Assembly (NCBI RefSeq): GCF_008107645.1
Contig: NZ_SDGY01000001.1
Span: forward strand, 511,955-575,954
Reading direction: 5' to 3'
Source of the DNA: Leuconostoc litchii
GTDB lineage: Bacteria; Bacillota; Bacilli; Lactobacillales; Lactobacillaceae
Length of the DNA: 64,000 bases
In this document: positions 2,481 through 57,686 of the stretch, in pieces
How positions within the stretch are numbered: the stretch's first letter is position 1
How the letters are laid out: the number at the start of each line of letters is the position of its first letter
Program-made: the position numbers and the translations under genes
Notes under the pieces: model-generated
What the model was told of the DNA's origin: nothing
What the model saw: the letters and a program-made list of their open reading frames with translations, nothing else
Databases searched by the model: none

Positions 2481-3479
2481 TTACTGATAACTATCTGTAT
2501 GGTAAGATGTTTCTACAAATACACCTGTTTCGGTTTCTATTTGAAATAGTGGTCGATGTTTAACCTCAGTGAATATCTTACCGATATATAATCCAACAAT
2601 AGCGATAGCAATTAAATTAATACCACCAAGTAACCAAATAGAAATCATCAACGAAGACCAACCAGCTTCCGTGTTGCCAATAAGTTTTTCGAATACAGTA
2701 TACAATATTTCGATACTGGCGATGCCTACCACAAACAAACCTATACTAAACAATAAACGAATCGGTTGAACACTGAAGCTTGTTATTCCATCAATCGCAA
2801 AGCTCAACATTTTTTTAAGTGGATATTTCGAAGTACCTGCTTGACGTTTTCCACGTTCATAAAATACTTTATCCGACTGATAACCAACGAGTGGAACCAT
2901 TGCTCTTAGAAAAACATTGCGTTCGGGTAATTTAAGTAGCGCCTTGACTGCCACGCTGCTCATTAATCTAAAATCAGCATGGTTAGGAACCATTTCAACC
3001 CCTAAGAACCCTGCTATTTTATAGAAAGTCAATGCCGTATTACGCTTAAACCAAGTATCCTCTTTTCTACTAGACCTCACCGCATAAACAATTTCATTAC
3101 CTTCATTGTATTTAATAATCATTTTTTCAATGATATCTGGATTATCTTGCAAATCAGCGTCCAACGTAATAATAATATCTGCTAACTTGATACTTTCTGA
3201 CATACCAGCTAACAATGCCGACTGATGTCCAAAATTACGAGACAATTTGACACCAATTAAATCCGAATTCATTAATTCTTTTTCCTGAATAATACGCCAT
3301 GTTTCATCTTTTGAACCATCATCTACGACAAGAATAAAGCTGTCATGACTAATAAGATGTGTATCTATAAGATGTTCTTTAATTTCATTTAACTTAGATA
3401 ATGTTGTTGGCAAAACCTCTTGCTCATTATAAGCTGGTAAAATAAGTCCCAATCTTGGTATTTTTGAACGTGAAAGCAT
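2481..3479 (-). CDS. polyprenyl-phosphate glycosyltransferase, GT2 (YkcC/GtrB-like)
   Basis: The 332-residue protein has a cytosolic GT-A domain (about 1-230) followed by two C-terminal membrane helices (about 240-262 and 275-300). Visible motifs are LILPAYNEQEVLP, VVDDGSKDET, SRNFGHQSALLAGM, the DxD-like TLDADLQDNPD, and RGKRQAGTSKYPLKKML. This is the DPM1/GtrB class, which moves a sugar from a nucleotide donor to undecaprenyl phosphate on the inner face of the membrane. It starts 21 bases after the end of the YkcB-like gene and ends at a terminator, so the two form one operon. The lipid-linked sugar is probably the donor for that partner. No separate GtrA-type flippase gene is visible nearby. 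The sugar is unknown. Confidence 0.88.
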   Translation of the reverse strand: MLSRSKIPRLGLILPAYNEQEVLPTTLSKLNEIKEHLIDTHLISHDSFILVVDDGSKDETWRIIQEKELMNSDLIGVKLSRNFGHQSALLAGMSESIKLADIIITLDADLQDNPDIIEKMIIKYNEGNEIVYAVRSSRKEDTWFKRNTALTFYKIAGFLGVEMVPNHADFRLMSSVAVKALLKLPERNVFLRAMVPLVGYQSDKVFYERGKRQAGTSKYPLKKMLSFAIDGITSFSVQPIRLLFSIGLFVVGIASIEILYTVFEKLIGNTEAGWSSLMISIWLLGGINLIAIAIVGLYIGKIFTEVKHRPLFQIETETGVFVETSYHTDSYQ

Positions 3480-3500
3480 ATTTAAACTACCCCTTTCCTA

Positions 3501-5591: not shown

Positions 5592-5772
5592 AACCAATAC
5601 CTCCTTTGGATAGATTTATTTTAGTTGAGTATGTCTATATGTAGATTAAATAAACGTTAACTCAAAATTAAAATATGACCAAGTTCTTCTATATCATTCT
5701 TTTTTATTAAAAAAGCCTACCTTAACTTTGATTAATTAAGAAATAAGCATTTTATAATTAAATATATTTATT

Positions 5773-6192
5773 TTACTCAAATGTTAAATGGTAGTTTTTA
5801 TTAGCTTTCTCCCAATTTTCAAACAAATCATCATGTTTAGCATGCTGAAGATGGCGATATTTAGTTAGTAAATAATCTTTACGCTTTCCTATTTCAAAAT
5901 ATGCAATTGCACCCTGCTTATTATTATTCGTGTTTATTTTAACAACCACAAGTTCCATGCTAGCATTGGGATTAGGCAATCCCACGTTTAATGTAACAAA
6001 ATTAATATAAGCCATATTTACTTGAAAATCCTGCCACAAACTATTTGTTTCTTCGTTTTCTAAATCTTTCTGTAGCCATAAAGTATCATAGAAAGTCACC
6101 TCTTCATTATATTTATTATTAATAATATTATAAATAATAAGATCAAGCTGTGACTTTAAAAATGAATATACAATAGATGTATCATTAATCAT
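5773..6192 (-). CDS. hypothetical protein, 139 residues
   Basis: A soluble-looking protein without signal peptide or membrane helix; I recognise no family. It is acidic, Asn- and Tyr-rich and has alternating hydrophobic strands in its second half. The ATG is preceded by AAGGG at a long distance of about ten bases. It is flanked upstream by the ATPase terminator hairpin and downstream by about 175 bases leading to the YkcB-like gene, so it is probably transcribed alone. No operon partner hints at its function. Confidence 0.55.
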   Translation of the reverse strand: MINDTSIVYSFLKSQLDLIIYNIINNKYNEEVTFYDTLWLQKDLENEETNSLWQDFQVNMAYINFVTLNVGLPNPNASMELVVVKINTNNNKQGAIAYFEIGKRKDYLLTKYRHLQHAKHDDLFENWEKANKNYHLTFE

Positions 6193-6262
6193 AATTGGAC
6201 CATACCCTTAATTTAAATTCGTAACATCATTATATATACGTAAAATTAAAGCAAAATTATAT

Positions 6263-6296
6263 AAAAAACAACTCACAATACTGTGAGTTGTTTTTT
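6263..6296 (-). terminator. terminator after the P-type ATPase gene
   Basis: Perfect hairpin with arms AACAACTCACA and TGTGAGTTGTT around a four-base loop, flanked by A and T runs on both sides. It could therefore work in both directions. Confidence 0.9.
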
Positions 6297-6303
6297 AATG
6301 CAT

Positions 6304-9006
6304 CTATTTAGTGGTTTTTATTCTTGATAACAACCGACGATATTTATCTAATTCAGTTACAATCAAAACTGTCAACCCAGTAATAATAATAATTAACCAA
6401 TCATTAACAGATAATGCGGCTGTTGAAAAGACTACTTGCATCATGGGCACATATGTGAATATTACTTGTAAAACAATCATTGCTCCAATTGCTCCAAAAG
6501 CCATTGGATTTGTCCAAAATGATTTACTTAACGCTGGAGCTTCTGTTCGAATATTAAACATATAGAAAATTTTACCAAATATAATAACATTAACAGCCAT
6601 CGTACTTGCTACTGAAAATCCAGTAATGTTATTAAGATGTTCAAATATAACAAGAGCTACAGCAGCAATGATAACACTAACATAAATCATTTGGAACACA
6701 TCATAACGACTCATCAATTTAGCTGATGATTTTCGTGGTTTACGCTTCATGATACCTGGCTCAGCTGGCTCAAATATGAATGCCAATTGCAACGTTAAAG
6801 CTGATACCATATTAATCCATAGTAACTGTGTAGCAGTTAAAGGCATTGGTTGACGGAGCAATATGCTAAAAACAACAATCAACCCTTCCGCAAAACTAGT
6901 TGGTAACAGATATAAAATAGTTTTCTTAATATTGTCGTACAACCGGCGTCCTTGTTCAATGGCTACTTTAATTGTCGAAAAATCATCGTTAGCTAAAACC
7001 ATATCGGCAGAATCTTTAGCTACATCAGTTCCTTTTATGCCCATAGCAACACCAATATCAGCTTTTTTAAGCGCTGGTGCATCATTAACACCATCACCAG
7101 TCATAGCAGTCACTAATCCATTAGCTTGATAAGCAGCTATAATCCGTAATTTATCCTGTGGCGTTGTTCGTGCAAAAACATCATATTTTTGTACTTTTTT
7201 AATTAACTGCTCTTCTGACATTAATTCAATTTCAGCACCAGTGACCGTATGAATAATGTCAGCTAAGCCTAGCTGTTTTGCAATTGCCTGCGCTGTATCC
7301 GGGCTGTCTCCTGTAATCATTTTCACACGAATACCTGCCTCCCGCATATCTCTGATGGCATTTACAACCTCAGGACGTGGTGGATCTATAATCGCCGCTA
7401 AACCTAAGAATTTTATCCCCTTAGAAGCTAGTATATCATGATCAAATTCTATTATTTCGGAGGGGACATCGATATATCCAACTGCGATGACGCGCTTACC
7501 TGATTTTGCAAAACGTTGTGCTACTTCTGACCAATAGTTTCTATCAAAATTCGAATCATTTTCAGACAACGTAAACAATTTATCAGGAGATCCTTTTATT
7601 GCAATAAAATGATTGCCTTGCTTATTTCTGACTAAACGTGCCATATAGCGGTATTCTGAATCAAACGGAATACGATCAAGTTCTTCTAATTTAGGTTCTT
7701 TTTGTCCAAAAGCTTTATAGTATGCTGATAAAAAGGCAGCATCAGTAGGTTCACCATTGATATTCCAAACACCGTCATCATTTGTTAAAAATGTATCGTT
7801 GGCTTGATGGCCCATGGTCAAAAACATTTCTAACTTTTTATCTTGCGTAGCATTGACAACTTCATTATTGAGAATAACATCCCCATTTGGCGCATATCCT
7901 GTTCCGGTAACTTTATAATGATTTTGACCAATTACGATATCTTGAACAGTCATTTCATTTTTAGTTAACGTACCAGTCTTATCAGATGCAATAATATCTA
8001 TCGCTCCCAAGGTTTCTGCCGCAGGCAGTGTTTTAACAATAGCATTCTTTTTGGTTAATTTCTTAACACCCGTGGCCAATATGATTGACGTTGCCGCAGG
8101 TAGCCCTTCTGGCATCGCCCCAACAATCATAGCAATAATCGCCATAACTAAGGTTGTTGTATCATAAATTTTCAGGAACCAGCCCAACCCAAACATGATA
8201 ATGGCAACAGCAATAATTAACCATGAAATACCATGTCCCAAACTATCTAGTTCTTTTGTCAGTGGTGATTTTTTATTTGATACATCAGCTACACTTTGAG
8301 AAATTTGCCCAATTTGTGTATTCAAACCAGTACCTACTACAACACCTGTTGCACTACCATTAGTAACAGCAGTTGAAGCATAAGCCATGTTACTACGCTC
8401 AGCCAGTGGAATATTTCCTATTAACGTAGATTCACTTTTAAGTACCGAATCAGCTTCACCGGTCAATGACGACTCTTGAATTCGCAGATTGTCAGCATCA
8501 ATAATCCGTAAATCAGCTGGTACATTATCTCCAGCCTCCAAATACACTAAATCGCCTAACACCAATTCCCTGGATGGTACATCATATCTATTGTTATCAC
8601 GAATTACTGTAGCGTCAATGGATAACATATTTTTAATTTTATCTAAGGCATTACTAGCATTAACCTCTTGCAAATAGCCAATAATTGCATTAATCACCAC
8701 GACTAAACCAATGACAATCGCATCGGCATAATGTTGCATGAATAAGGTCAGTGAGGCGGCAACTAATAAAATGTATATAATGACATTGTTAAATTGCTTT
8801 AAAAAAATAAGCCACTTAGGCACAACTTTTAAATTTACTTCGTTGTATCCATACTTGTTTAACCTAGATTCAACCTGTTGCTCATCCAATCCAACAGGAT
8901 AATTTGCTTCTATGGTTTGAATGACATCAGACCAGTCTTTATTGTGGAAATTTGTTGAGGACGATAACGGAACGTCGTCGTTAACCTCTTTCGAATCTGT
9001 ACTCAT
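6304..9006 (-). CDS. P-type cation ATPase, probable Mn2+ exporter (YoaB/MgtA-like)
   Basis: A full-length 900-residue P2-type ATPase. It has an N-terminal cation-ATPase domain, the actuator motif TGEAD (182-186), PEGLPA in helix M4 (299-304), the phosphorylation motif DKTGTLT (342-348), MTGDGVNDAPA in the hinge (about 635-645) and about ten helices. A yybP-ykoY (Mn2+) riboswitch lies just upstream. The lactococcal YoaB and streptococcal MgtA pumps have the same arrangement and export excess manganese, so Mn2+ efflux is the best inference. Helix M6 reads NMVSALTLQ (732-740), so the Asp that binds Ca2+ in SERCA-type pumps is Ala here. This argues against a classical Ca2+ pump. The ribosome binding site AAAGGAG precedes the ATG. 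Confidence 0.87.
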   Translation of the reverse strand: MSTDSKEVNDDVPLSSSTNFHNKDWSDVIQTIEANYPVGLDEQQVESRLNKYGYNEVNLKVVPKWLIFLKQFNNVIIYILLVAASLTLFMQHYADAIVIGLVVVINAIIGYLQEVNASNALDKIKNMLSIDATVIRDNNRYDVPSRELVLGDLVYLEAGDNVPADLRIIDADNLRIQESSLTGEADSVLKSESTLIGNIPLAERSNMAYASTAVTNGSATGVVVGTGLNTQIGQISQSVADVSNKKSPLTKELDSLGHGISWLIIAVAIIMFGLGWFLKIYDTTTLVMAIIAMIVGAMPEGLPAATSIILATGVKKLTKKNAIVKTLPAAETLGAIDIIASDKTGTLTKNEMTVQDIVIGQNHYKVTGTGYAPNGDVILNNEVVNATQDKKLEMFLTMGHQANDTFLTNDDGVWNINGEPTDAAFLSAYYKAFGQKEPKLEELDRIPFDSEYRYMARLVRNKQGNHFIAIKGSPDKLFTLSENDSNFDRNYWSEVAQRFAKSGKRVIAVGYIDVPSEIIEFDHDILASKGIKFLGLAAIIDPPRPEVVNAIRDMREAGIRVKMITGDSPDTAQAIAKQLGLADIIHTVTGAEIELMSEEQLIKKVQKYDVFARTTPQDKLRIIAAYQANGLVTAMTGDGVNDAPALKKADIGVAMGIKGTDVAKDSADMVLANDDFSTIKVAIEQGRRLYDNIKKTILYLLPTSFAEGLIVVFSILLRQPMPLTATQLLWINMVSALTLQLAFIFEPAEPGIMKRKPRKSSAKLMSRYDVFQMIYVSVIIAAVALVIFEHLNNITGFSVASTMAVNVIIFGKIFYMFNIRTEAPALSKSFWTNPMAFGAIGAMIVLQVIFTYVPMMQVVFSTAALSVNDWLIIIITGLTVLIVTELDKYRRLLSRIKTTK

Positions 9007-9036
9007 AATTGTATACTCCTTTAAGAGAAAATATTC

Positions 9037-9125
9037 TTTGCGTCTTGCTGTTTAAGGTTGGCCGCTAGAAATATTAAATCTAGTAAGTCAGTTTCCCACG
9101 CACATGCGCCGCTACTCCCGCAAGG
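9037..9125 (-). promoter_or_regulatory. yybP-ykoY manganese riboswitch
   Basis: On the minus strand the closing stem TTGCG (9119-9123) pairs with CGCAA (about 9038-9042). The two conserved internal-loop halves are present: GGGAGTAG right after the 5' strand and CAGCAAGAC right before the 3' strand. Between them are a GCGCA/TGCGT hairpin, GGGAAACTGACTTA, a CTAGA/TCTAG hairpin and CGGCCAAC. This matches the Mn2+-sensing yybP-ykoY aptamer. No terminator lies between it and the ATPase ATG, so control is probably at translation: the AAAGGAG site is about 20 bases downstream. The platform itself is not resolved. Confidence 0.85.
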
Positions 9126-9189
9126 TTATCAATTATGAACAAATTTTAGCTTGTAATTTATTTTATCATGGGGTTGTTTCACTGTCTAA

Positions 9190-10539
9190 TCATATGCTTT
9201 TACTTCTCAAACGAATGAAAAACATCACAAATATAATCAAGGCAATGGCAAGTAATGTCCACAAAAAGTTTTCAAATCCAATAGCTAAGCCTCCACGTTG
9301 TGAACCATACAACGCTGCTACGGTTGTTCCTAATGCGCCCATAAACATTTGGGAAGACTGTAAAATAGCCGTAGCATCAGTCTTTTTATCAATGCTTAGC
9401 TCATTAATTGATGCAGTCATGCCTATGCTAAAAGCTAGGTTACGACCCAAAGTAAAAATCATGTACATTATAATAAAAGCCGAAAAATTCAGACTCTTAA
9501 TAAAGTAAGCCATTACTAAGAGGCTGCTGGCAAAAACAGTATTTCCCAAAAGTAGCGGCACTTTATTACCGTATTTATCATACAAGTGCCCAAAATAAGG
9601 ATTCAAAACACCACCTAATAGCGTACCAGGTAACAAAGAAATACCTGCCCAGAAACTAGATGTATGGAGCACATTTTGTAAATAATTCGGTAACAAAAGA
9701 TTGATTCCCAGATTAGCAAACATATAAAGCACAACTGGAAACATTAACATTGAAAATTTATAATTAGAAAGCAGTCTGATATTTAAAAAAGTTTGTTGTG
9801 ATGTTAATGATCTAAAAATAAATGCTCCCAATGCTAATAGCATAACGATGAGTAACCACACATTTACCGTGCCTTTTCCTAATTGGTTAATTAAAATTAG
9901 TGCTGTTGTAAGCGTCACTGATAACATGCCAAACGCTAATACATCAAATGATACATTGGATTTTATTTGTTCTCCTGGGATTATTGTTTGCCAACCTAAG
10001 ATTAAAGATATTAATGGTATTATTAGCAAAATAAAGAATATTGAGCGCCAACCTAGGGTATCAATTAATGCACCACCATATGTTGGGCCAAATGACGGTG
10101 CTAAGCTAACGACCATGGCGCCAATACCCATCCATAAGCCTATTTTGGATCCAGGAACTAATCGAACAATCAGATTGAACATTAATGGCATTGAAATACC
10201 AGCAGCCATACCTTCTAACACACGTCCTATCAAAAGTATTGGCAAATTACCAGCTAGACCCCCAATAAACGTTCCTATGGTAAATAAAAGTAAACTCATT
10301 AGCCATAAAACACGAGGTGAATACTTTTTGTTCAAGTAAGCGCTCGTTGTAATCATAATCGTAACTGAAAGCAAATAGGCAGTCGTTACCCATTGTATAG
10401 CGTTTAATGATGTATTAAAGTACTTCGTTAATGCTGGAAAAGTAACATTCATCGCTGTTTCAGCCATAATACCAGAAAAAGAAACCAATGCAACAGCTAT
10501 AATGGCCATAGCATTTTTTTTTGAAACTTTATTGCCCAT
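9190..10539 (-). CDS. MFS multidrug efflux transporter (DHA2-type)
   Basis: A 449-residue membrane protein of the major facilitator superfamily, drug:H+ antiporter type. It has the N-terminal AETAMNVTFPALTKYFNTS segment and the helix-3/4 region GRVLEGMAAGISMPLMFNLI. It begins 16 bases after the stop of a MarR-family gene, on the same strand. This arrangement usually means the pump is repressed by the MarR protein and induced by its ligand. The substrate is unknown. The ribosome binding site is CGGAG. Confidence 0.85.
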   Translation of the reverse strand: MGNKVSKKNAMAIIAVALVSFSGIMAETAMNVTFPALTKYFNTSLNAIQWVTTAYLLSVTIMITTSAYLNKKYSPRVLWLMSLLLFTIGTFIGGLAGNLPILLIGRVLEGMAAGISMPLMFNLIVRLVPGSKIGLWMGIGAMVVSLAPSFGPTYGGALIDTLGWRSIFFILLIIPLISLILGWQTIIPGEQIKSNVSFDVLAFGMLSVTLTTALILINQLGKGTVNVWLLIVMLLALGAFIFRSLTSQQTFLNIRLLSNYKFSMLMFPVVLYMFANLGINLLLPNYLQNVLHTSSFWAGISLLPGTLLGGVLNPYFGHLYDKYGNKVPLLLGNTVFASSLLVMAYFIKSLNFSAFIIMYMIFTLGRNLAFSIGMTASINELSIDKKTDATAILQSSQMFMGALGTTVAALYGSQRGGLAIGFENFLWTLLAIALIIFVMFFIRLRSKSI

Positions 10540-10555
10540 TTTTGTCTCCGTCTAA

Positions 10556-10972
10556 TTACTTATTAATTTTGTCGTCTGCAACATATTCCAAAAATTTAAT
10601 GATAGTTTTTCGCTCTTCTGCCGAAAAAGGTTGCAAAATAACTTCATCATGCATTTGAATTGCATTTCTAGCGATACCATTTATTTTTTCTCCTGCTTTG
10701 GTGAGATGTATTTCATTAACTCTTTTATCAGATAATCTTGGTATTCTGATAACAATGTTTTTTTCGACCATTCGGTCTATCATTGTTGCCACCGAAGAAG
10801 CTTTGATATGAAACTCTTGTTCGATATCTTTCTGGGTGACGCATTCATTGCTAGCAATAAATTTAATAGCTAGTAGTTGTGAGCCTGTTACACCATGTAC
10901 TTGCGCTAACATATCTAAATATTTGTTCAGATTACGTTGTCCAATCTTGAATAGTTTTCCAATCGATTTCAT
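10556..10972 (-). CDS. MarR-family transcriptional regulator
   Basis: A 138-residue winged-helix protein. The recognition region is VTQKDIEQEFHIKASSVATMIDRMVEKNIV and the wing contains RIPRLSDKRVNEIHLTKAG, the DxR wing of MarR proteins. It is the first gene of a two-gene unit with the MFS pump. A perfect palindrome of MarR type lies 25-41 bases upstream of its start, overlapping the expected promoter, so autorepression is likely. The inducing compound is unknown. Confidence 0.88.
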   Translation of the reverse strand: MKSIGKLFKIGQRNLNKYLDMLAQVHGVTGSQLLAIKFIASNECVTQKDIEQEFHIKASSVATMIDRMVEKNIVIRIPRLSDKRVNEIHLTKAGEKINGIARNAIQMHDEVILQPFSAEERKTIIKFLEYVADDKINK

Positions 10973-10997
10973 TCGCTATGCTATCCCTCTCAATATA

Positions 10998-11013
10998 TTA
11001 GTTAGCTAACTAA
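10998..11013. promoter_or_regulatory. probable MarR operator
   Basis: TTAGTTAGCTAACTAA is a perfect 16-base palindrome, extended by ATATA/TATAT sequence on both sides. It lies between the MarR start and the AT-rich promoter region. AGTTAG-TAACT-like palindromes are common MarR sites. Confidence 0.65.
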
Positions 11014-11058
11014 CTAATATATTATCATACACTAAAATAGTATATGATACAACAATAA

Positions 11059-11084
11059 AAAAGTAGCCCATTTAGGGCTACTTT
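11059..11084 (-). terminator. terminator after the LCP gene
   Basis: AAAGTAGCCC and GGGCTACTTT arms around a five-base loop, followed on the minus strand by a T run. It separates the LCP gene from the MarR/MFS unit. Confidence 0.88.
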
Positions 11085-11112
11085 ATGTTAACTTTTAGAT
11101 GATGAAAATAAA

Positions 11113-12339
11113 CTACTCTTCGGTTAATTTTAAATTTTCACTTGTATTATTTTCTGGATATAACTCATCCGCTGTACCAACTTGAGCTAATTCACCAGCT
11201 GTCACTTCACTACCAAATTCACCACCTGTCGTTGCCGAATCCATGTCTAAACTGGTCCGAACTTTATTCGTTATAGCTTGCCGTTGTGCTTTTGTAACAC
11301 GTTGATAAGATACACCATCATATAGTTCTCCTTGGCCTTGAACCGTGTATGACACAATATTTTTAGTTGCATTAATATAGTTAGTACCTAAAGTTAGCAT
11401 ATCATCAGATTTTAAATTGGAAGCAATATTTTTGGTAGTTGCATTGATGAAATTCAAGTTAACGACCTTTGTCGGATTTTGCTTTATTCTGCGAATAATC
11501 TGTTGCAATAAAATACGCTGGCGCTCTGTCCGACCATAGTCACCTTTTGGATCTTGATAACGCATCCTAGAAAATGCTAAAGCGGCTTTCCCATCCATCT
11601 TGTGCTGTGTTATATAATTTTTACCATCAGCTGCATACTTAAATGAGCTAGACCCCTGCGTAAATTGATACAAATCTTTACCTGTTTCATGCGCTGTTTC
11701 TTGACTAAATGCAAATGTTAGGGGAGACTTTACTGATACACCACCAATTTGATCAACAACATCCCCAAGACCACTCATGTTAACCATAGCAAAATAATTA
11801 ATTGGAAAATTAAACATTTTCTGAATCGTATCCATAGTAGTACCTACACCATCTCCTAAGGATGCATTATCATCTGATGCCTCTTTAAAAGCATAAGCTG
11901 CATTTAACTTTTGCGGGAAACTATTCTCAAATCCAGAAATAGAAGTCATGATATCTCTGGGAATAGAAATTAAAGTAGTTGTTTCTTTCTTTGGATTAAC
12001 TGTAACAATCATCATTGAATCTGTTAATCCCACGCGATTTCGATTCGTCCCAAAACCACCATCTGTACCAATGTCAGTTCCTAAGACTAAAAACGATATT
12101 GGCTTTTTATTCTGAATCAACTTTTCTGCCTTCTTTTCCGAAGAAAGTCCTGTTGACGAATAGGACTTATTAATTGAGTCATTTAAATGATAAAAATAGA
12201 ATGCTGTATATCCGATAATGGTTGTGAAAACAATGCCAATGATTATCACGAGATATAATTTGATAAAACTACGACGTTTACTATGAAATAGAGCCATACG
12301 ACTTTTCACAGATGTTTGGCTAATCTCATCTTTTTTCAT
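11113..12339 (-). CDS. LytR-CpsA-Psr (LCP) cell-wall glycopolymer ligase
   Basis: A 408-residue membrane-anchored protein with a short basic cytoplasmic N-terminus and one helix (about 27-50), followed by an extracellular LCP domain. Visible signatures are ISFLVLGTD, the GLTDSMMIVTVNP strand, the ISIPRD motif and the arginine-rich RMRYQDPKGDYGRTERQ. These residues bind the polyprenyl-pyrophosphate headgroup. LCP enzymes attach teichoic acids or capsule polymers to peptidoglycan. The C-terminal tail is acidic and extended. It is transcribed alone, divergently from aldC, and closed by its own terminator. Confidence 0.9.
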   Translation of the reverse strand: MKKDEISQTSVKSRMALFHSKRRSFIKLYLVIIIGIVFTTIIGYTAFYFYHLNDSINKSYSSTGLSSEKKAEKLIQNKKPISFLVLGTDIGTDGGFGTNRNRVGLTDSMMIVTVNPKKETTTLISIPRDIMTSISGFENSFPQKLNAAYAFKEASDDNASLGDGVGTTMDTIQKMFNFPINYFAMVNMSGLGDVVDQIGGVSVKSPLTFAFSQETAHETGKDLYQFTQGSSSFKYAADGKNYITQHKMDGKAALAFSRMRYQDPKGDYGRTERQRILLQQIIRRIKQNPTKVVNLNFINATTKNIASNLKSDDMLTLGTNYINATKNIVSYTVQGQGELYDGVSYQRVTKAQRQAITNKVRTSLDMDSATTGGEFGSEVTAGELAQVGTADELYPENNTSENLKLTEE

Positions 12340-12556
12340 GATTCCCCACTCCCCTTGTTAACACATTAAAAAAATTACAATGATGCAATGATAATAATTA
12401 TAACATAGGCGCTTTGAGGATATTAATTAAAAAATAAAATTTTATCATAAAGCAAAGTGAAATTATAAGAGTATTTATATTGTCTTTTTTAATCTTGAAT
12501 AAATTTTCATGTGGTTTACTTTTAGTAAGTGAAAAGCGAAATTAGAAGGAGGCTTT

Positions 12557-13267
12557 ATGGCTACAATTTATCAACACGGTACTTTGGAATTAATTATGTC
12601 TGGCTTATATGATGGCACAACAACGTTTTCATCACTATTGCAATATGGTTCCACCGGTATAGGAACAATGAATCAGCTAGATGGTGAAGTCACCATACTA
12701 AACAATAGAATTTTCCAAACAAATACCGATGGTAGAACACACGAAATAACAAATTTAGATTTAACGACACCATTTACTTCTATACATGATCAATCAAAAC
12801 TATATTATTTTCTTCAGGAAAAATTTTTGGATTTTAATAGTTTGAATCAATTATCTCAAAATAAGCAGAATTGGCATAACTTACCAGCTAGTATACAAAT
12901 AAAAGGAGATTTTTCAAAACTCAAAGTTCGTGTTGCACCAAAACAAAAAAAGCCTTATCCACCTTTTATTGAAGTAACACGAAATCAGCCAGAATTTGAA
13001 TATAAAAATGTTAGTGGTACATTAGTTGGGGATTTTGGACCAGAACTTTACAGTGGTATTATGGCGAACGGTTGGCATCTGCATTTTCTTAGCGATAACT
13101 ATTTAATTGGTGGACATGTTCTTGATTTTTCGGTTCATGAAATGATTGGTAGAGTTGATTTTTTTGAGGAATTAAATATTACATTACCTATTCATAATGA
13201 AGATTTTAAAAATCACCAAGCAGACGTTTTAAAGCTTCGAGATGCCATTGATCTTGCTGAAAAGTAA
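12557..13267 (+). CDS. aldC: alpha-acetolactate decarboxylase
   Basis: A 236-residue cytosolic zinc enzyme that converts alpha-acetolactate to acetoin. Family features include the N-terminal YQHGTLELIMSGLYDGTTTF, the FGPELYSGIMANGWHLHFL segment with zinc-binding His residues, and GGHVLDF with a third His. Length is typical. The ATG follows AGAAGGAGG. It is a single gene between the divergent LCP gene and a convergent metal-transport operon, with a terminator right behind. Together with the butanediol dehydrogenase near 31 kb it gives a route from pyruvate to acetoin and butanediol, used by lactic acid bacteria to dispose of pyruvate. Confidence 0.93.
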   Translation: MATIYQHGTLELIMSGLYDGTTTFSSLLQYGSTGIGTMNQLDGEVTILNNRIFQTNTDGRTHEITNLDLTTPFTSIHDQSKLYYFLQEKFLDFNSLNQLSQNKQNWHNLPASIQIKGDFSKLKVRVAPKQKKPYPPFIEVTRNQPEFEYKNVSGTLVGDFGPELYSGIMANGWHLHFLSDNYLIGGHVLDFSVHEMIGRVDFFEELNITLPIHNEDFKNHQADVLKLRDAIDLAEK

Positions 13268-13284
13268 AGTTTACTAAACAAATT

Positions 13285-13323
13285 AAAAAAGTTCAGTAGT
13301 TTTACCAAATTACTGAACTTTTT
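13285..13323. terminator. bidirectional terminator between aldC and the metal-binding protein gene
   Basis: AAAAAGTTCAGTA and TACTGAACTTTTT arms around a loop of about a dozen bases, with A/T runs on both flanks. It serves two convergent genes. Confidence 0.9.
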
Positions 13324-13336
13324 GTTTAAATCAATT

Positions 13337-14278
13337 TTATTGAGATAACCCCGCTGAAATTTTATCCAAATTCCATTTCATCATACCGTAGTATGTGTCT
13401 GCATTTTGTCCTTTTTTAGCTAAAGAATCTGTATATATTTTTGAATAGATTGGTAAACCGGTTTCTTTTGAAAGCTTTTCCATCGTTTTTGGTGAAACCG
13501 AACTTTCCAGAAACAATACAGGTACATTAGTAGCATCTATTTTTGTTAACACTTGTCTCATTTGTTCTGGTGTTCCCTGTGACTCAGTATTGATTTCCCA
13601 AATAAATGCTGGAGTAATGCCATAAGCAGCAGAAAAATATTTAAAAGCCCCTTCAGATGTAACTAATAATTTCTTATCTTCGGGTATACTGTCAAATTTT
13701 GTTTTTGCACTTTGATCTAACACAGATAATTTTTTAACATACTCTGCTGTACGCTTTTTATAAGTCGTAGCATTTTCAGGATCCTTAGCAATCAATACTT
13801 TCTCTATATTTTTAACGTATTTAATACCATTTTGTAAATCTAGCCAAGCATGTGGATCTAATTCATTTTCTTTACCTTTATCAGTTAGTCGTTTAGCGAC
13901 TACCCCCTTAGAAACTGAAAAGACTTGTTGATCTATCTGTTTTCCAGCATTTTTGTACATTTTTTTAAACCAACCAGATCCACCCGTCTCCAGGTTAAGC
14001 CCATTGTGGAATAATATATCAGCTTCTTGAGATGCTACCACATCTTGTGGTTTAGGTTCATATTCATGAGGATCTGTACCACGTGGAACAATAGTATGTA
14101 AATTAACCTTATCACCACCAACCTCTTCAACCATATTACCAATAATTGAATTAGTTGCTACAATCTGCAATTTATCGTGTTGACTAGTTTTACCACCTTG
14201 ACCACTGTTAACAAACCAAAAGACACCTCCTAAGACAATTACAACAATCACAATAGTACTACTTAAACGTTTGATCAT
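13337..14278 (-). CDS. Mn-type ABC transporter substrate-binding protein (TroA/PsaA family)
   Basis: A 313-residue extracytoplasmic metal-binding protein. The four ligand positions of the cluster A-I fold are visible: DPHEYEP (His), DPHAWLD (His), INTESQGTP (Glu) and YTDSLA (Asp). His-His-Glu-Asp is the set found in Mn/Fe binders such as PsaA, whereas zinc binders have His at the third position. There is no His-rich zinc loop. The start ATG at 14278 has GGAG nine bases upstream. The N-terminal helix lacks the Cys of a lipoprotein signal, so the protein may be held by an uncleaved helix. It is the last gene of the ABC operon, after the ATPase and permease genes. Confidence 0.88.
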   Translation of the reverse strand: MIKRLSSTIVIVVIVLGGVFWFVNSGQGGKTSQHDKLQIVATNSIIGNMVEEVGGDKVNLHTIVPRGTDPHEYEPKPQDVVASQEADILFHNGLNLETGGSGWFKKMYKNAGKQIDQQVFSVSKGVVAKRLTDKGKENELDPHAWLDLQNGIKYVKNIEKVLIAKDPENATTYKKRTAEYVKKLSVLDQSAKTKFDSIPEDKKLLVTSEGAFKYFSAAYGITPAFIWEINTESQGTPEQMRQVLTKIDATNVPVLFLESSVSPKTMEKLSKETGLPIYSKIYTDSLAKKGQNADTYYGMMKWNLDKISAGLSQ

Positions 14279-32162: not shown

Positions 32163-33719
32163 TTAAGTATTATAATTTGATTTTTTCAGTAAGATTATAT
32201 TAAAAATTCGTTTGATACTTAAATTCGTATCAGGAATTAGCAATGTAGCCCCAATTAAAAATAATGGTAAGAATTGGATTATGTATCGGCTTCGGCCACC
32301 TTCAAATAAAAGAAGAAACAGGAATGCGCCAATAATACCCAATCTGATTGTTTGAACTTCCTCAGAACGATTACGCCAACCAAAAAATATAAAGCTTAAA
32401 ATAATTAACCAAATAAATTGAGTAATAAACCGAAAATTCGCAACTTTTTCACCATAAATATAAAGGTAATCTTCAAGTATTCTTTTTATTCCTGTGGCCT
32501 TTGGAATTTGCTTTCCTTGAATAAAACTACCTTCTTTCCCCCAAGCAAATGAGCCATCTGCTGAATTATTTATTTGTTTTTTAATTAAAAAGCGAATATA
32601 ACCAATAGGTCCCAGCGCCTTCAATCTTTTGAAATAACTTTGTTTTGAATATTGAGTTTTTTCAGATTTTGTGGCTAATTCACCCATTTTCAATGTATCT
32701 TTTGGGTTATAACCACCGTCTCCAGAAATACCCATATTCATAAAATGAATTGCCGGAATAGCGCGTTCCTTATTCACACTGATAAAAGTTTGTTGATCGA
32801 CTTTATTTTGAATTATTGTGTAACAGAAAATAAATGTAAGCAATACAACTATAAACATGCATATTTTGCTACGTATCTTCAAAGTATGATTTAGTTTTGG
32901 TTCTAATAAACTAAAAAGGCTTATCAGAACTATAGCTATAGCAGGGATTATTGCCGAAGGTTTTATAAAGTAGGCTATGCATACACACATAGAGAAACCG
33001 ACTAATAAAGTAAATTTTATCCAAGGTTGCTTCACTTTTTTACTACAAAAATAAAAAAATAAGAATCCAGATATAAAAGGTAAAACCCAGGTGTCAGTAT
33101 ATGGAACGATAACCCAAGGGAAAAAAGCAAATAAAAAAATATGAATATACAATGCAGGTGCCAAGTATTTTTTGTTGATTGTGTAAACAGCAGCAACAGA
33201 AAAAATAATGGAAACGTCAACCATAAAAATAGTAACATAGTCTAAAAATAACCACGTTCTTAACTTAAATACAGATGAAATAACCTCCATAAATAGTAAA
33301 ATTGGTAAGTTATTGACGTTCAAACTAAAATACGCCTTATTGTTAGCATCATCAACATGATGTAATGATCCTACCAATGCCGAGGGATCCCAACCAATTT
33401 TAGGATGAAAAACTGTTACAAACAAGATTTGCGCCAGTATTAGAAAGAAAAACAAAGTTATTGCTGCAATCATTTTATGTTGAATAAAAATAAACGTAAA
33501 TATTTGTTTTATTCTAGGGATAAAACAAATTAAACTTATCACAGCTAATATTATCAGAAAAAAAAGTACTAGTCCGATAGTTGTTGTTGTACCTTTTTTT
33601 AAATTATCACCCAAAATAAAATTTTCAGATAAAATCACCGATACATAAGTAATGCCAAAAAGAAAATAGAATAGGATGAAAATAAAATTATTTCCAAAAG
33701 TATAAAACTTAGCTTTCAT
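32163..33719 (-). CDS. XrtG-associated polytopic membrane protein, putative glycosyltransferase
   Basis: A roughly 518-residue membrane protein with about 11-12 helices and a large extracytoplasmic loop (about residues 310-420). It resembles the integral membrane protein that accompanies exosortase G (family TIGR03766 from memory), which has the general plan of GT-C glycosyltransferases. HVDDANNKAYFSLNVNNLP near residues 125-145 could hold acidic catalytic residues in the first external loop. It is the last gene of the five-gene operon. The ATG at 33719 overlaps the end of the previous gene by eleven bases; an ATG at 33749 is also possible. The function is inferred from context. Confidence 0.72.
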   Translation of the reverse strand: MKAKFYTFGNNFIFILFYFLFGITYVSVILSENFILGDNLKKGTTTTIGLVLFFLIILAVISLICFIPRIKQIFTFIFIQHKMIAAITLFFFLILAQILFVTVFHPKIGWDPSALVGSLHHVDDANNKAYFSLNVNNLPILLFMEVISSVFKLRTWLFLDYVTIFMVDVSIIFSVAAVYTINKKYLAPALYIHIFLFAFFPWVIVPYTDTWVLPFISGFLFFYFCSKKVKQPWIKFTLLVGFSMCVCIAYFIKPSAIIPAIAIVLISLFSLLEPKLNHTLKIRSKICMFIVVLLTFIFCYTIIQNKVDQQTFISVNKERAIPAIHFMNMGISGDGGYNPKDTLKMGELATKSEKTQYSKQSYFKRLKALGPIGYIRFLIKKQINNSADGSFAWGKEGSFIQGKQIPKATGIKRILEDYLYIYGEKVANFRFITQFIWLIILSFIFFGWRNRSEEVQTIRLGIIGAFLFLLLFEGGRSRYIIQFLPLFLIGATLLIPDTNLSIKRIFNIILLKKSNYNT

Positions 33720-34098
33720 AACTGTCACTCGCTTGATTTCTAGTAACATAATAAAATCTCATAGGCGATTCACCTACTTCTAACCTGTTTAATCGCGCGT
33801 GTAGTGGTCTTATTTGCTCCTCAACTAATTTGAAAAAGCCTTTTGTAATATTTTCTAATGTTGGATTTATTGTCAAAAATGGTTCGACTTGATTTAAAAA
33901 CTTGCCAGAATATGTTTTAAAAATTTCTTCCAATAGATCTTCAACTTTATCAAACACAATCATATGTTCATCAGTTGATTGAAATTCAACAGTGATTTCC
34001 CAAGAATGTTCATGTTTTTCGCCAGTTCCTTTTTCCCATCTAACCGCATGACTAGCATGAACATAGTACTTTAATCGATAAGTTCCCACTAAATTCAT
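33709..34098 (-). CDS. 6-pyruvoyltetrahydropterin synthase-related protein, XrtG-associated
   Basis: A 129-residue T-fold protein related to QueD/PTPS. Zinc ligands are kept: His in YVHASHAV and both His of KHEHSWEI; the PTLENI Glu is also present. The catalytic Cys normally four residues before the HxH pair is absent (the residue is Thr), so classical PTPS or QueD chemistry is doubtful. It matches the variant that occurs with exosortase G (TIGR03112 from memory). It overlaps the GT2 gene stop by four bases. No folate or queuosine genes are nearby. Its role in a surface-anchoring operon is unknown. Confidence 0.8.
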   Translation of the reverse strand: MNLVGTYRLKYYVHASHAVRWEKGTGEKHEHSWEITVEFQSTDEHMIVFDKVEDLLEEIFKTYSGKFLNQVEPFLTINPTLENITKGFFKLVEEQIRPLHARLNRLEVGESPMRFYYVTRNQASDSYES

Positions 34099-35441
34099 TT
34101 TTGCTTATCTCCTTTAATTTTCATAAGATCATTGATTACAATTTTCTTAACTGTAGTGAATTCTTCTTTGTAGTCCTTAGTCGTCCATTTAGAAGAAAAA
34201 TATTCTGTATTAATTACACCAATAAGACGTACCCAAGATAAAATGAAATTGTATATTGGCAGTAAGAACACACAATCAAACAACCCAAAATAAAATTTAC
34301 GCTCTGCAGGGAATCTTTTTAACATCATACACACGTTCGTGTAAACCAAAATACTCATGAATACATATAAAATATAAATTGATAGGTACGATAATGATAA
34401 TAATAGTGGTGAATAGTTCAAAAATAGTAAAGAAATACTAGCAAATAACCAGATTGTTTTCAAAAATAAAAATGTATGATCAATAATTAATCTTCTCACC
34501 AAGAAATTAGAGAAAAATGCTTTTACATTTAGCTTATATCCAGAAAATTTTTGGGATACTTCAATTTGACCACGTTGCCATCTTTGTCTCTGCATGTATA
34601 ATTTATTCCAACTTTCAATTGGATCAACAAAAAAGAAAGCATCTGCACAAAGCATTACCTTACCTTTGGATTTTTCTCTGACTTGAAAAGTGATATCAAT
34701 ATCCTCACCAACAGTTGATATGTCATACATGAAGGTTTTCATCAACGCTTCTTTACGAAATCCGGAAAAAGCTCCAGACATTGTGTATAAATGGTTCCTG
34801 CGTGATTCCGTATTTCTACCAGAAATAAATGCTTGAGCATATTCAAAGTATTCTAATCGCTGTAACCACTTCAATGGTAAATTTTTGGTTCTTTTAATTA
34901 ATTCTTTCTGTGTTAATATGCATCCTGTCATTGCAGAAATTGTCATATCACCTTCAAATTTGCTAATTAAATTTTTTAAAGCATTAGTTTCTAAAATACC
35001 ATCACTATCAATATTAACAATATACATACCAGTACTATTATAAATAGCAGAATTTAAAGCGCGTGCTTTGCCTTTTTCAGTTTTCATCCACTGAATATTT
35101 AATTGTTGAAAATCTTTTTGTGTTTTTTGAAAAATTTTAAAACTATTATCAGTACTTTGGTTATCCACTAATATAACTTGAATTTTATCGCTTGGATAAG
35201 TTGATTGATTAATCGACTGCACACAATCATACAATGTATCCTCAGAATTATAGACAGGCACGATAATTGAGATATATGGCCAAAAATCTAAATCTTTTTG
35301 AGAATTATGGTTGCGCAATGTAAAGATGAAAATTCGAGCAAAGGCTAAAATAGCAGGAAGTGTCTCCACTAAAATCGGAATAACTAACCAAGTTATCCAA
35401 AAGCCCATTTGATTTAACGTTGAAAAAAATATATAGTTCAT
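34095..35441 (-). CDS. XrtG-associated processive GT2 glycosyltransferase
   Basis: A 448-residue membrane GT2 enzyme. An N-terminal helix (about 15-40) is followed by a GT-A domain with IIVPVYNSEDTL, VDNQSTDNS, the DxD motif NIDSDG, GEDIDITFQV and the processive QRQRWQRG motif, then about four C-terminal helices. This plan is shared with hyaluronan and poly-N-acetylglucosamine synthases, so a polysaccharide may be made and pushed through the membrane. It begins directly after the exosortase stop codon with AGAGGAGG upstream. It corresponds to the GT2 that accompanies exosortase G (TIGR03111 from memory). The sugar is unknown. Confidence 0.85.
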   Translation of the reverse strand: MNYIFFSTLNQMGFWITWLVIPILVETLPAILAFARIFIFTLRNHNSQKDLDFWPYISIIVPVYNSEDTLYDCVQSINQSTYPSDKIQVILVDNQSTDNSFKIFQKTQKDFQQLNIQWMKTEKGKARALNSAIYNSTGMYIVNIDSDGILETNALKNLISKFEGDMTISAMTGCILTQKELIKRTKNLPLKWLQRLEYFEYAQAFISGRNTESRRNHLYTMSGAFSGFRKEALMKTFMYDISTVGEDIDITFQVREKSKGKVMLCADAFFFVDPIESWNKLYMQRQRWQRGQIEVSQKFSGYKLNVKAFFSNFLVRRLIIDHTFLFLKTIWLFASISLLFLNYSPLLLSLSYLSIYILYVFMSILVYTNVCMMLKRFPAERKFYFGLFDCVFLLPIYNFILSWVRLIGVINTEYFSSKWTTKDYKEEFTTVKKIVINDLMKIKGDKQK

Positions 35442-36014
35442 TTACACCTCCTCTTTGTTTTTTGATAGATAGGTATAAGTAAAGACCCTGTAGTAAAAAA
35501 GTACAACAAGGATATAAAAAACAATTCTACCAATAATTGAATGAGCTAAAAAGAAGTATTCCGTACCAAAATTATGGACAATTAGTACAATTAGAGTCAA
35601 CCGAATAATATTCGCAGTATAAATCCAAACTAATCCATACAAAGCCAGTGCCACTTTACCCTTGGATTTATACATTGGATAAAATGTTAGTAATCCCCAA
35701 AACGCAGCGGTCTCTATCACACCTGAACATTCATAATCAATGGACATTGTCATTGAATTAAACCCGTGAGTAATAGCAATTAACCCATAGTCTGAAGAGA
35801 TTGAAGCTAAATTAAACGGTTGAACAATAATTGATAAACCTATGGATACAGCACGAACCATTATCCAAATAAAATATGGTTTACTCATGAAAAATAGAAT
35901 GAAAAACAACCCGATACTACCTACAATAAAATAAAAAGCAGGTAACTTGGCTCTTTTGAAAACAGACAATGTATAGAGCCAAATAAGTACACCAATTAAT
36001 AAGAAAATATTCAA
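35442..36014 (-). CDS. xrtG: exosortase family protein XrtG
   Basis: A 190-residue membrane protein with about six helices and the catalytic triad pattern of exosortases and archaeosortases: Cys96 in SIDYECSGVIETAAFWG, Arg138 in ANIIRLTLIVL and His158 in FFLAHSIIGRIVFY. Exosortases cut a C-terminal tripartite tail and transfer the protein to a new anchor. The Gram-positive type G member is found in lactobacilli and relatives. The start is TTG at 36014, overlapping the stop of the substrate gene (TTGA). The likely substrate is encoded directly upstream, and two glycosyltransferases and a pterin-synthase relative follow in the same operon. Confidence 0.88.
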   Translation of the reverse strand: MNIFLLIGVLIWLYTLSVFKRAKLPAFYFIVGSIGLFFILFFMSKPYFIWIMVRAVSIGLSIIVQPFNLASISSDYGLIAITHGFNSMTMSIDYECSGVIETAAFWGLLTFYPMYKSKGKVALALYGLVWIYTANIIRLTLIVLIVHNFGTEYFFLAHSIIGRIVFYILVVLFYYRVFTYTYLSKNKEEV

Positions 36015-36736
36015 GTCAATGATCTCTCTTTCTTACTTTTTTTCAGCTTACCAATGAGTAGTACTGCAATTGCTAAAAAGAATCCACTTAAAACAATCAT
36101 GCTACTTCCGGTATCGGCACCCGCTATGGTGATTTTTTGCTGTCCCATATTATCTGTATCATAAATAGTCATACTCTGCACTATATCAGGATTTTTTAGA
36201 AAACCGTTTAGTGGAATTTTAATCTCCGCGCGATCATGGTATGCCCAGCCATTACTAGATTTTTCAGAAGCCACAAATCCTGTAGCTCCGGTAATTTCTT
36301 GATTAATAAATATTTGATCAGGATTTTGGTTACTCCATGACCAAACAGATTTAATAGCTGCTTTTTGCCCAGCCTGAAGAGACCATATACCACCATCCAC
36401 CGTAAAACTCAAACTGGTAATGTTGTTGCCAACTTGGATGTTCCAGCCACTACCTTGAAAACGATAATTATGTCCCTTGTTGTAAGGGTCCATGTCAATG
36501 TAAATATACAAATATTGCCCGTCTGATAGAAAGGAACCTTGTTTTGTTACATTACCATTATTGTAATCAAAAAATATATCTGTTTTGGGTTTGTCGACCC
36601 AATCGTCAAAACTGCCATCAATTGCAATATTATAATTATTTGTTGTCTCCGCATTAACTTTATTAGTAAATAAAAATATACCTACCAATGTAATTATCGT
36701 AATAAGCATAAAATGAACTATTTTATTAACCTGCAT
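36011..36736 (-). CDS. secreted protein with Firmicu-CTERM-like sorting tail, probable XrtG substrate
   Basis: A 241-residue exported protein. A signal peptide (1-29, cleavage likely after NVNA/KVNA) is followed by a beta-rich domain starting AIDGSFDDWVDKP, which resembles carbohydrate-binding (CBM9/DOMON-like) modules. The C-terminus is tripartite: short motif ADTGSS (207-212), a hydrophobic helix (about 213-230) and a Lys/Arg cluster (KLKKSKKERS). No LPxTG is present, so sortase A would not recognise it. This matches the Firmicu-CTERM tail reported with exosortase G. It is the first gene of the operon, behind AAGGAG and a TTGATT-16-TATAAA promoter. Confidence 0.82.
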   Translation of the reverse strand: MQVNKIVHFMLITIITLVGIFLFTNKVNAETTNNYNIAIDGSFDDWVDKPKTDIFFDYNNGNVTKQGSFLSDGQYLYIYIDMDPYNKGHNYRFQGSGWNIQVGNNITSLSFTVDGGIWSLQAGQKAAIKSVWSWSNQNPDQIFINQEITGATGFVASEKSSNGWAYHDRAEIKIPLNGFLKNPDIVQSMTIYDTDNMGQQKITIAGADTGSSMIVLSGFFLAIAVLLIGKLKKSKKERSLT

Positions 36737-57584: not shown

Positions 57585-57604
57585 CATCAAAAATAATTTA
57601 GTAG

Positions 57605-57678
57605 ACACTTTCCTACGCTGGTATAACCCAGATCAGGTTCAAAGAGTTCTTCTCAGTCATTTTCTGACGCCTCTAGTG
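57605..57678 (-). promoter_or_regulatory. TPP riboswitch (THI element)
   Basis: On the minus strand the aptamer runs ACTAGAGG, then CTGAGA, then ACCTGATCTGGGTTATACC and AGCGTAGGAAAGT. These are the conserved pyrimidine- and pyrophosphate-sensor segments of the thiamine pyrophosphate aptamer. A terminator follows, so control is at transcription and lowers thiW expression when thiamine is plentiful. Confidence 0.96.
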
Positions 57679-57686
57679 CAACTATA

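Follow-up and report, generated by a model that had tools for sequence, protein, structure and literature searches.

Organisation and recurrence of the operon

The DNA analysed here, referred to as the window, is a 64-kb stretch of contig NZ_SDGY01000001.1 from Leuconostoc litchii, and it carries an operon of the exosortase-G (XrtG) system. Five abutting or overlapping open reading frames (ORFs) run on the minus strand from position 36736 to 32163 and encode, in this order, a secreted Firmicu-CTERM substrate, XrtG itself, a GT2 glycosyltransferase, a PTPS-like protein and a GT-C membrane glycosyltransferase (Table 1). The genes are joined by a TTGA overlap of four bases, a 0-base gap on the 5' side of the GT2 gene, an ATGA overlap and a short overlap in front of the last gene, whose translation could start equally well at an internal ATG (33719). 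All five NCBIfam models of the XrtG system (TIGR03110, TIGR03111, TIGR03112, TIGR03766 and TIGR04145) were exceeded at their curated cut-offs, and Cys96, Arg138 and His158 of XrtG were shared by all 28 homologues aligned. Since all five models pass and these three residues are invariant, the operon is a new member of the XrtG system. It is an ordinary and complete member of this named but biochemically uncharacterised system, with the same five families in their commonest arrangement and no difference in gene content found. An earlier note on this DNA, made from the sequence alone, had described the same layout and junctions, assigned all five families as we do (including the 190-residue protein as an exosortase with the three residues named above) and placed the host among the lactic acid bacteria, all of which proved right. 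Its remark that no biochemical function is established agrees with the open-access literature searched, in which the sole paper found to use the terms 'XrtG' or 'Firmicu-CTERM' is concerned with expression only. Two points go beyond that note, namely a link to the second messenger cyclic di-GMP (c-di-GMP) and the lack of QueD-type catalytic residues in the PTPS-like protein. The c-di-GMP association, which was found here by comparison, is what makes the operon worth following; the NCBIfam model descriptions do not mention c-di-GMP, and no report of the link was found in the open-access literature searched.

Table 1. Features of the XrtG operon and of a possible accessory gene in the window
Feature	Position	Strand	Evidence
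Firmicu-CTERM substrate, 241 aa	36011..36736	-	TIGR04145 149.1 bits (cut-off 50)
Sorting tail of the substrate: G206-A-D-T-G-S211 motif, hydrophobic helix, basic end	36014..36121	-	Homologue motif counts
Exosortase XrtG, 190 aa, TTG start	35442..36014	-	TIGR03110 200.8 bits (cut-off 102.75)
XrtG-associated GT2 glycosyltransferase, 448 aa, QRQRW motif	34095..35441	-	TIGR03111 589.2 bits (cut-off 363.95)
PTPS/QueD-like T-fold-family protein, 129 aa	33709..34098	-	TIGR03112 116 bits (cut-off 69.35); PF01242
GT-C membrane glycosyltransferase, 528 aa	32163..33749	-	TIGR03766 627.1 bits (cut-off 500)
Possible donor supplier, GtrB/PgfS/ArnC-like GT2	2481..3479	-	NF047588 219.6 bits (cut-off 500), NF007986 144.2 (cut-off 529); both below curated cut-off

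The same arrangement recurs across 81 loci with an XrtG ORF, which excludes that the genes are grouped by chance. The GT2 gene lies immediately 3' of xrtG in all 79 loci with enough sequence, and the substrate gene immediately 5' of it in 66 of 76, while a PTPS gene is present within 63 and a GT-C gene within 71 of the 81 loci. Two further loci (L053 and L087) had no XrtG ORF after the overlap filter and were omitted from the locus and adjacency counts; the XrtG frame of L053 is open. Among 201 sampled Lactobacillaceae genomes 37 carry XrtG, a number that takes in G248 and G194, in which the matches are broken or split. The host genome has a single match each for TIGR04145, TIGR03110 and TIGR03112.

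Substrate and exosortase

The AlphaFold model of the substrate (predicted local distance difference test score, pLDDT, 81.1; 22 sequences) consists of a signal-peptide-like N-terminal helix (residues 3-26), a beta-rich domain and a C-terminal helix (residues 210-240) with a basic end. Together with the family match and the alignment, this bears out the tripartite tail of motif, membrane helix and basic end described earlier. The motif of the window copy reads GADTGS, and its G206 was invariant in 25 of 25 aligned sequences. Among 98 distinct homologous ORFs, some of which are fragments, exact GGSTGP occurred within the last 60 residues in 50, and the looser form G-x-x-[TS]-G in 77. Two substrate genes are encoded at some XrtG loci, and in the substrate of G142 the ectodomain appears, by eye, to be repeated.

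With regard to the ectodomain, no Pfam match was obtained, but its modelled fold looks CBM9-like, with modest support. The top rows of the VIA comparison were 4jpq (Z 8.5, 'putative carbohydrate-binding protein'), the CBM9 of xylanase 10A (1i82; Z 8.4, root-mean-square deviation (rmsd) 3.6 over 136 residues, 13% identity), 2ivf chain C (Z 8.3) and 7b04 chain C (Z 6.8), followed by a row at Z 5.6. We take 4jpq, 2ivf chain C and 7b04 chain C to be CBM9/DOMON-like as well.

The Cys, Arg and His of exosortases are catalytic. The XrtG profile gave no match to PDB sequences at E ≤ 1, and XrtG also matches TIGR04178, the superfamily that it shares with archaeosortase A. A parallel is offered by the archaeosortase A/PGF system of Haloferax volcanii, which, as described in PMC7157517, has in common with the operon a tripartite tail and a Cys protease of the same superfamily. 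The archaeosortase A genes are described there as syntenic with a lipid-making pathway in Methanosarcina, a further point of likeness. The two systems differ in that the XrtG operon has glycosyltransferases and not PssA/PssD, and in that its genome has one substrate gene.

Glycosyltransferases

In the GT2 protein D145, D147, E246-D247 and Q284-W288 (QRQRW) were invariant in 29 of 29 aligned sequences. QRQRW is a motif of the processive-synthase type, in line with the earlier description of a processive enzyme, and the next-best model was that of the poly-GlcNAc synthase PgaC/IcaA (131 bits, under the cut-off of that model).

The model of the last protein (pLDDT 91.1) was closest to ArnT (Z 21.7, rmsd 3.6, 310 residues). 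By title, rows 1-46 of its VIA comparison (Z 11.5-21.7) are GT-C enzymes or complexes with GT-C-fold subunits, and row 47 falls to Z 3.8; all rows above Z 4 are thus of the GT-C type, though this by itself does not exclude other folds. Four GPI-transamidase rows and several translocon rows are presumably complexes that hold GT-C-fold subunits. Judged by its predicted fold, the polytopic protein encoded by the last gene is a GT-C glycosyltransferase, as suspected earlier. It shares its fold with ArnT-type enzymes and differs from them in having no Pfam match and no PDB sequence match, both at E ≤ 1.

The presence of Pmt4, PglB, AglB and OST in the VIA list would agree with an operon that glycosylates the substrate itself, in which the GT-C protein would be a protein glycosyltransferase and XrtG only a trimmer of the tail. 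These enzymes come after ArnT, however, which is the best match and which modifies lipid. Moreover, the processive-type motif of the GT2 protein is not expected for single-sugar protein glycosylation, and the ectodomain resembles a sugar-binding fold. We regard glycosylation of the substrate as an unlikely function of the operon.

The GtrB/PgfS-like GT2 gene elsewhere in the window is a possible source of a donor for the XrtG pathway (Table 1). It lies directly 3' of a gene whose 698-aa product is a polytopic membrane protein, GT-C-like in appearance when judged by eye (the pair spans 2481-5597, minus strand). Extra GT-C paralogues adjoin the XrtG operon at three other loci (L038, 4253-8369; L081, 13990-18189; L044, 13615-16772), and in L038 and L081 the XrtG locus also includes a GtrB/PgfS-like GT2 gene, as though the glycan received further decoration.

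The PTPS-like protein

In QueD and PTPS enzymes a His triad binds metal, and a Cys together with an Asp-His pair is catalytic. The operon protein has the family match (PF01242), the triad and the acidic positions in common with these enzymes: among 73 homologues H17, H29 and H31 are conserved in 72, 71 and 72, respectively, Glu82 is found in all, and 72 have an acidic residue at position 110. Where the solved relatives have the Asp-His pair, in contrast, most homologues have Ser (56 of 73) followed by Gly (63 of 73), and the column that corresponds to the Cys of 2oba varies (Thr in 29, Glu in 12, Ile in 6 and Ser in 5 of 73). The loss of the Cys alone is weak evidence, since the solved relative 2dj6 lacks it too. 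Thus the metal histidines are kept, while the QueD catalytic positions are not. The protein also differs from QueD/PTPS in its gene context, which is one of glycan genes and often c-di-GMP genes. The solved relatives were found by the profile search; a single-sequence search of the PDB found nothing.

The gene follows XrtG closely. TIGR03112 matches occurred in 34 of the 37 XrtG genomes of the Lactobacillaceae sample and in 4 of the 164 others; one of these four (G212) holds a GT2-PTPS-GT-C cluster cut by a contig end, and the other three matches are partial or weak. One locus (L085) encodes, at 6328-9309, a fusion of a PTPS domain (residues 8-115) with a PF10131 membrane protein (residues 253-872), directly 5' of the substrate and xrtG genes; further downstream in that locus, at 12979-13416, there is another PTPS gene.

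We suggest that the protein is a regulatory ligand-binding subunit and not a pterin enzyme. It might instead be an active enzyme that supplies the glycosyltransferases with a pterin- or deazapurine-like product, a role for which the near-universal triad and acidic positions 82 and 110 would speak, as would the tight tracking of XrtG. The variable Cys position and the Ser-Gly replacement of the Asp-His pair count against an active enzyme, however, and the fusion in L085 fits a subunit; we consider enzymatic activity quite improbable.

GGDEF genes accompany XrtG

The association with c-di-GMP was first noticed in pBV60, a plasmid of Lactococcus lactis on which an XrtG operon is preceded by a PAS-GGDEF gene and an EAL gene. 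Across the Lactobacillaceae sample, GGDEF genes were found in 35 of 37 XrtG-bearing genomes versus 58 of 164 without XrtG (Fisher P 8e-12, uncorrected for kinship), and at E ≤ 1e-10 the corresponding numbers were 35/37 and 48/164. Of the 48 XrtG genomes reached from 50 of 80 loci, 46 have GGDEF. XrtG is rare in Enterococcaceae (2/105 genomes, with GGDEF in 18/105), and both XrtG genomes of this family have a GGDEF gene inside the XrtG locus.

The genes also stand next to each other repeatedly. Of 78 loci, 15 have a GGDEF or EAL gene no more than 600 bp from the operon, and 21 have one anywhere in the flanks. The 600-bp zones contain 17 such genes, as against about 1.4 expected from the remaining flanks, a roughly 12-fold density computed with contig ends inside the zones ignored. 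EAL proteins adjoining XrtG appeared, in a regular-expression print, to be of both catalytic-type and degenerate kinds. On a quick XrtG tree, which has some long branches and whose label count omits three Clostridial rows, the adjacency label (18 of 84 rows) changed 11 times, with at least 8 of the changes forced by starred branches; shuffled labels gave a mean of 16.5 changes, and none of 500 shuffles was as low as 11. As the changes are fewer than in the shuffles, adjacency appears to be partly inherited and partly repeated.

Sixteen XrtG genomes have exactly one GGDEF match (G148, G154, G174, G176, G181, G186, G190, G191, G192, G193, G245, G291, G299, G326, G351 and G000). This single gene is at the XrtG locus in G148, G176, G190, G193, G299 and G326 and beside the PTPS gene in G181, which makes 7 of 16; G184, with one or two GGDEF matches, is left out of the count. 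In Clostridiaceae a GGDEF-like gene lies between the GT2 and PTPS genes of the operon at L088 (E 1.6e-4, 21.9 bits, just under the cut-off of 23.8). The other Clostridial intra-operon genes compared with Pfam GGDEF gave E 0.13 (L085) and no match (L006), and when profiles of GGDEF and of the Clostridial intra-operon gene were compared, the probability was 6%.

A possible role for the XrtG system

From the gene content, conserved residues, folds, co-occurrence and adjacency established here we infer the cleavage, acceptor, glycan chemistry and c-di-GMP control set out below, as well as the same logic for the window copy. The XrtG system probably builds and decorates an envelope glycan and attaches a protein of the sugar-binding type to the surface, with production governed by c-di-GMP in the family as a whole. 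On the inner side of the membrane the GT2 enzyme would synthesise a polysaccharide or glycolipid, and on the outer side the GT-C enzyme would add sugars from a polyprenyl-phosphate donor. The secreted CBM9-like protein would be retained by its tail until Cys96 of XrtG cuts in or near the GADTG/GGSTGP motif, and its new C-terminus would be passed to an acceptor, for which a lipid or glycan produced by the operon itself is the likeliest candidate. The earlier note suggested that the substrate is cut and then linked to a lipid or glycan that the two glycosyltransferases produce, which is plausible by analogy with archaeosortase A. For that enzyme a comparable scheme has been presented, as speculative by its own authors, in which the active-site Cys takes the substrate C-terminus and passes it to a lipid amine (PMC7157517). 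The PTPS-like protein would act as the regulatory ligand-binding subunit. Control of the family by c-di-GMP is suggested because genes for diguanylate cyclases and phosphodiesterases repeatedly occur within or next to the operon, where several genomes have their only cyclase.

A sugar-binding-type protein and a glycan at the surface fit what has been seen in two lactobacilli. In L. plantarum, PMC12854382 describes XrtG genes as over-expressed in two strains that induce interferon, compared with one that does not, and the two inducing strains also self-aggregate more. In L. acidophilus, over-expressed DgcA raised exopolysaccharide (EPS) and co-aggregation, according to PMC6123363, although the GT2 operon in question is a different one. 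This gts operon resembles the XrtG operon in having a GT2 protein that its authors liken to BcsA/PgaC, a c-di-GMP-binding PdeB encoded in the operon, and EPS and aggregation phenotypes; it consists of gtsA, gtsB and pdeB, and exosortase and 6-pyruvoyl are absent from the main text of that paper.

Several observations weigh against this proposal. The co-occurrence statistic is corrected neither for kinship nor for genome size. XrtG and PTPS occur without any GGDEF match in two genomes, G179 (L. selangorensis) and G187 (O. oeni). In 63 of 78 loci no GGDEF or EAL gene lies within 600 bp, the adjacency label is clustered on the XrtG tree so that the cases are not all independent, and in 9 of the 16 single-GGDEF genomes the gene lies elsewhere or, for G291 and G351, was not located. 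The CBM9 likeness is affected as well: the substrate model gave no Foldseek match at E ≤ 0.001 (best E 0.02), and in the profile search CBM9 (E 0.25) came behind an unrelated chain (E 0.064). Moreover, the DgcA of L. acidophilus was inactive as a cyclase in vitro (PMC6123363, abstract).

The host strain itself adds to these points. The 64 kb of the window contain no GGDEF or EAL gene, and the only GGDEF gene and the only PilZ domain of the host genome lie, together with an EAL gene, in a GH8/CelA-like operon on another contig. There (L094, G000:C10:28000-42000, at 7949-12943) genes for GH8, for a CelA-like GT2 that has a weak PilZ domain and for EAL form a cluster, followed by the GGDEF gene. 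A cellulose-synthase-like operon is a classical c-di-GMP target and could alone account for c-di-GMP in this strain. Since the sole GGDEF gene sits in that separate operon, regulation of the window copy is extrapolated from its relatives. The XrtG clade of the window comprises the window, L098, L009 and L005; L005 and L009 have GGDEF and EAL genes directly upstream, whereas the window and L098 do not. Beyond the GH8/CelA-like cluster, by eye, there are genes resembling histidine biosynthesis.

Taken together, the two GGDEF-free genomes, the many loci lacking a nearby GGDEF or EAL gene, the bare surroundings of the window copy and of its nearest relative L098, and the cellulose-like setting of the host's own GGDEF gene would suit an ordinary XrtG system in which one surface protein is lipidated or glycan-linked constitutively and GGDEF co-occurs because biofilm-living lactobacilli with larger genomes keep both. 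Such a system would leave unexplained the 12-fold density of GGDEF/EAL genes near the operon, the forced changes on the tree, the seven genomes whose sole GGDEF gene is at the locus or beside PTPS, and the GGDEF-like gene inside the Clostridial operon. We consider constitutive action doubtful, though it deserves serious attention, and prefer control by c-di-GMP.

As regards the O. oeni genome, the Firmicu-CTERM ORF (L064, 9249-9845) ends just short of the sorting motif, and the XrtG system may be decaying there because the substrate ORF stops before that motif. No sign of decay was found in XrtG or the substrate tail of G179.

Control by c-di-GMP would offer a handle on when the system is switched on, in a family of food and gut bacteria. 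In strains with a single diguanylate cyclase at the operon, the question is testable by one deletion. If such control is borne out, exosortase anchoring in Gram-positive bacteria would be tied to a second messenger, possibly via a new kind of c-di-GMP receptor.

A candidate receptor

PilZ was above its cut-off in 3 of 20 XrtG genomes examined (G000, G162 and G245), and no GGDEF gene was found at the locus in these three; G326 gave a weak PilZ match (E 0.073). As PilZ passes in 3/20 only, a non-PilZ receptor is expected in most other XrtG genomes. The PTPS-like protein could conceivably represent a new class of receptor for c-di-GMP or another guanine nucleotide, in which a former pterin enzyme lost catalysis, kept a purine/pterin-type pocket and came to switch the GT-C and GT2 enzymes. 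We hold this to be rather unlikely, but several findings point in its direction. In G148, G176, G181, G184, G190, G193 and G299 a GGDEF gene lies at the locus or beside PTPS, with no PilZ match even at E 0.1. In five genomes the PTPS gene is clearly away from the operon, and in three of the five it has a GGDEF gene within 5 kb: it lies between GGDEF and EAL in G181, adjoins GGDEF in G362 and is within 5 kb of GGDEF in G177, while none is near in G162 and G173. Because G177 and G362 share a neighbourhood, these three cases amount to about two events. The fusion of the PTPS domain to a PF10131 membrane protein in L085 also agrees with a receptor. On the other side, G179 and G187 retain PTPS in spite of having no GGDEF match, G154, G158, G183 and G185 have XrtG and GGDEF with no PTPS match, and many of the adjacent EAL proteins could be the receptor instead.

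The set of displaced PTPS genes leaves out G164, and the PTPS position in G160 is also outside it. In G164 a contig ends 158 bases away from the PTPS and GT-C genes, and L033, which belongs to this genome too, stops 112 bases past its GT2 gene; no sequence overlap was found, and the two may be one operon split by assembly. In L090 (G362) and L100 (G177), which are Levilactobacillus relatives with a shared neighbourhood, the PTPS gene occurs near GGDEF without the other XrtG-operon genes.

Surroundings of the operon and other occurrences of XrtG

The 5' side of the operon in the window is occupied by a GAF-domain gene and by GH1, PTS and PRD genes, and the 3' side by a zinc-type dehydrogenase gene and an ECF transporter S-component gene. 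An Rfam scan of the window found, above gathering score, only a T-box leader (407-651) and a TPP riboswitch (57593-57684), both on the minus strand and neither at the operon, and thus no c-di-GMP riboswitch there. A scan for promoters and terminators gave sites no commoner than in shuffles (30 vs 29.3 and 1 vs 1.8, respectively).

A search of viral contigs for XrtG gave 7 pattern matches, 0 of which were confirmed. Two genomes have two XrtG genes, each in an operon of its own (L033/L047 in G164, Levilactobacillus fuyuanensis; L057/L059 in G182, L. hammesii). The plasmid pBV60 (L005, NZ_CP110851.1) carries the whole XrtG operon with the GGDEF and EAL genes at 4413-10691; it is typed as conjugative and has a site-specific integrase and an IS6 transposase near the operon, and the XrtG system on it may be mobile. 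Finally, a contig that binning assigned to the archaeon Candidatus Methanovirga australis (L070, 3832-10800) carries EAL, GGDEF, XrtG, GT2, PTPS, GT-C and substrate genes, which reflects either lateral transfer or a binning error.

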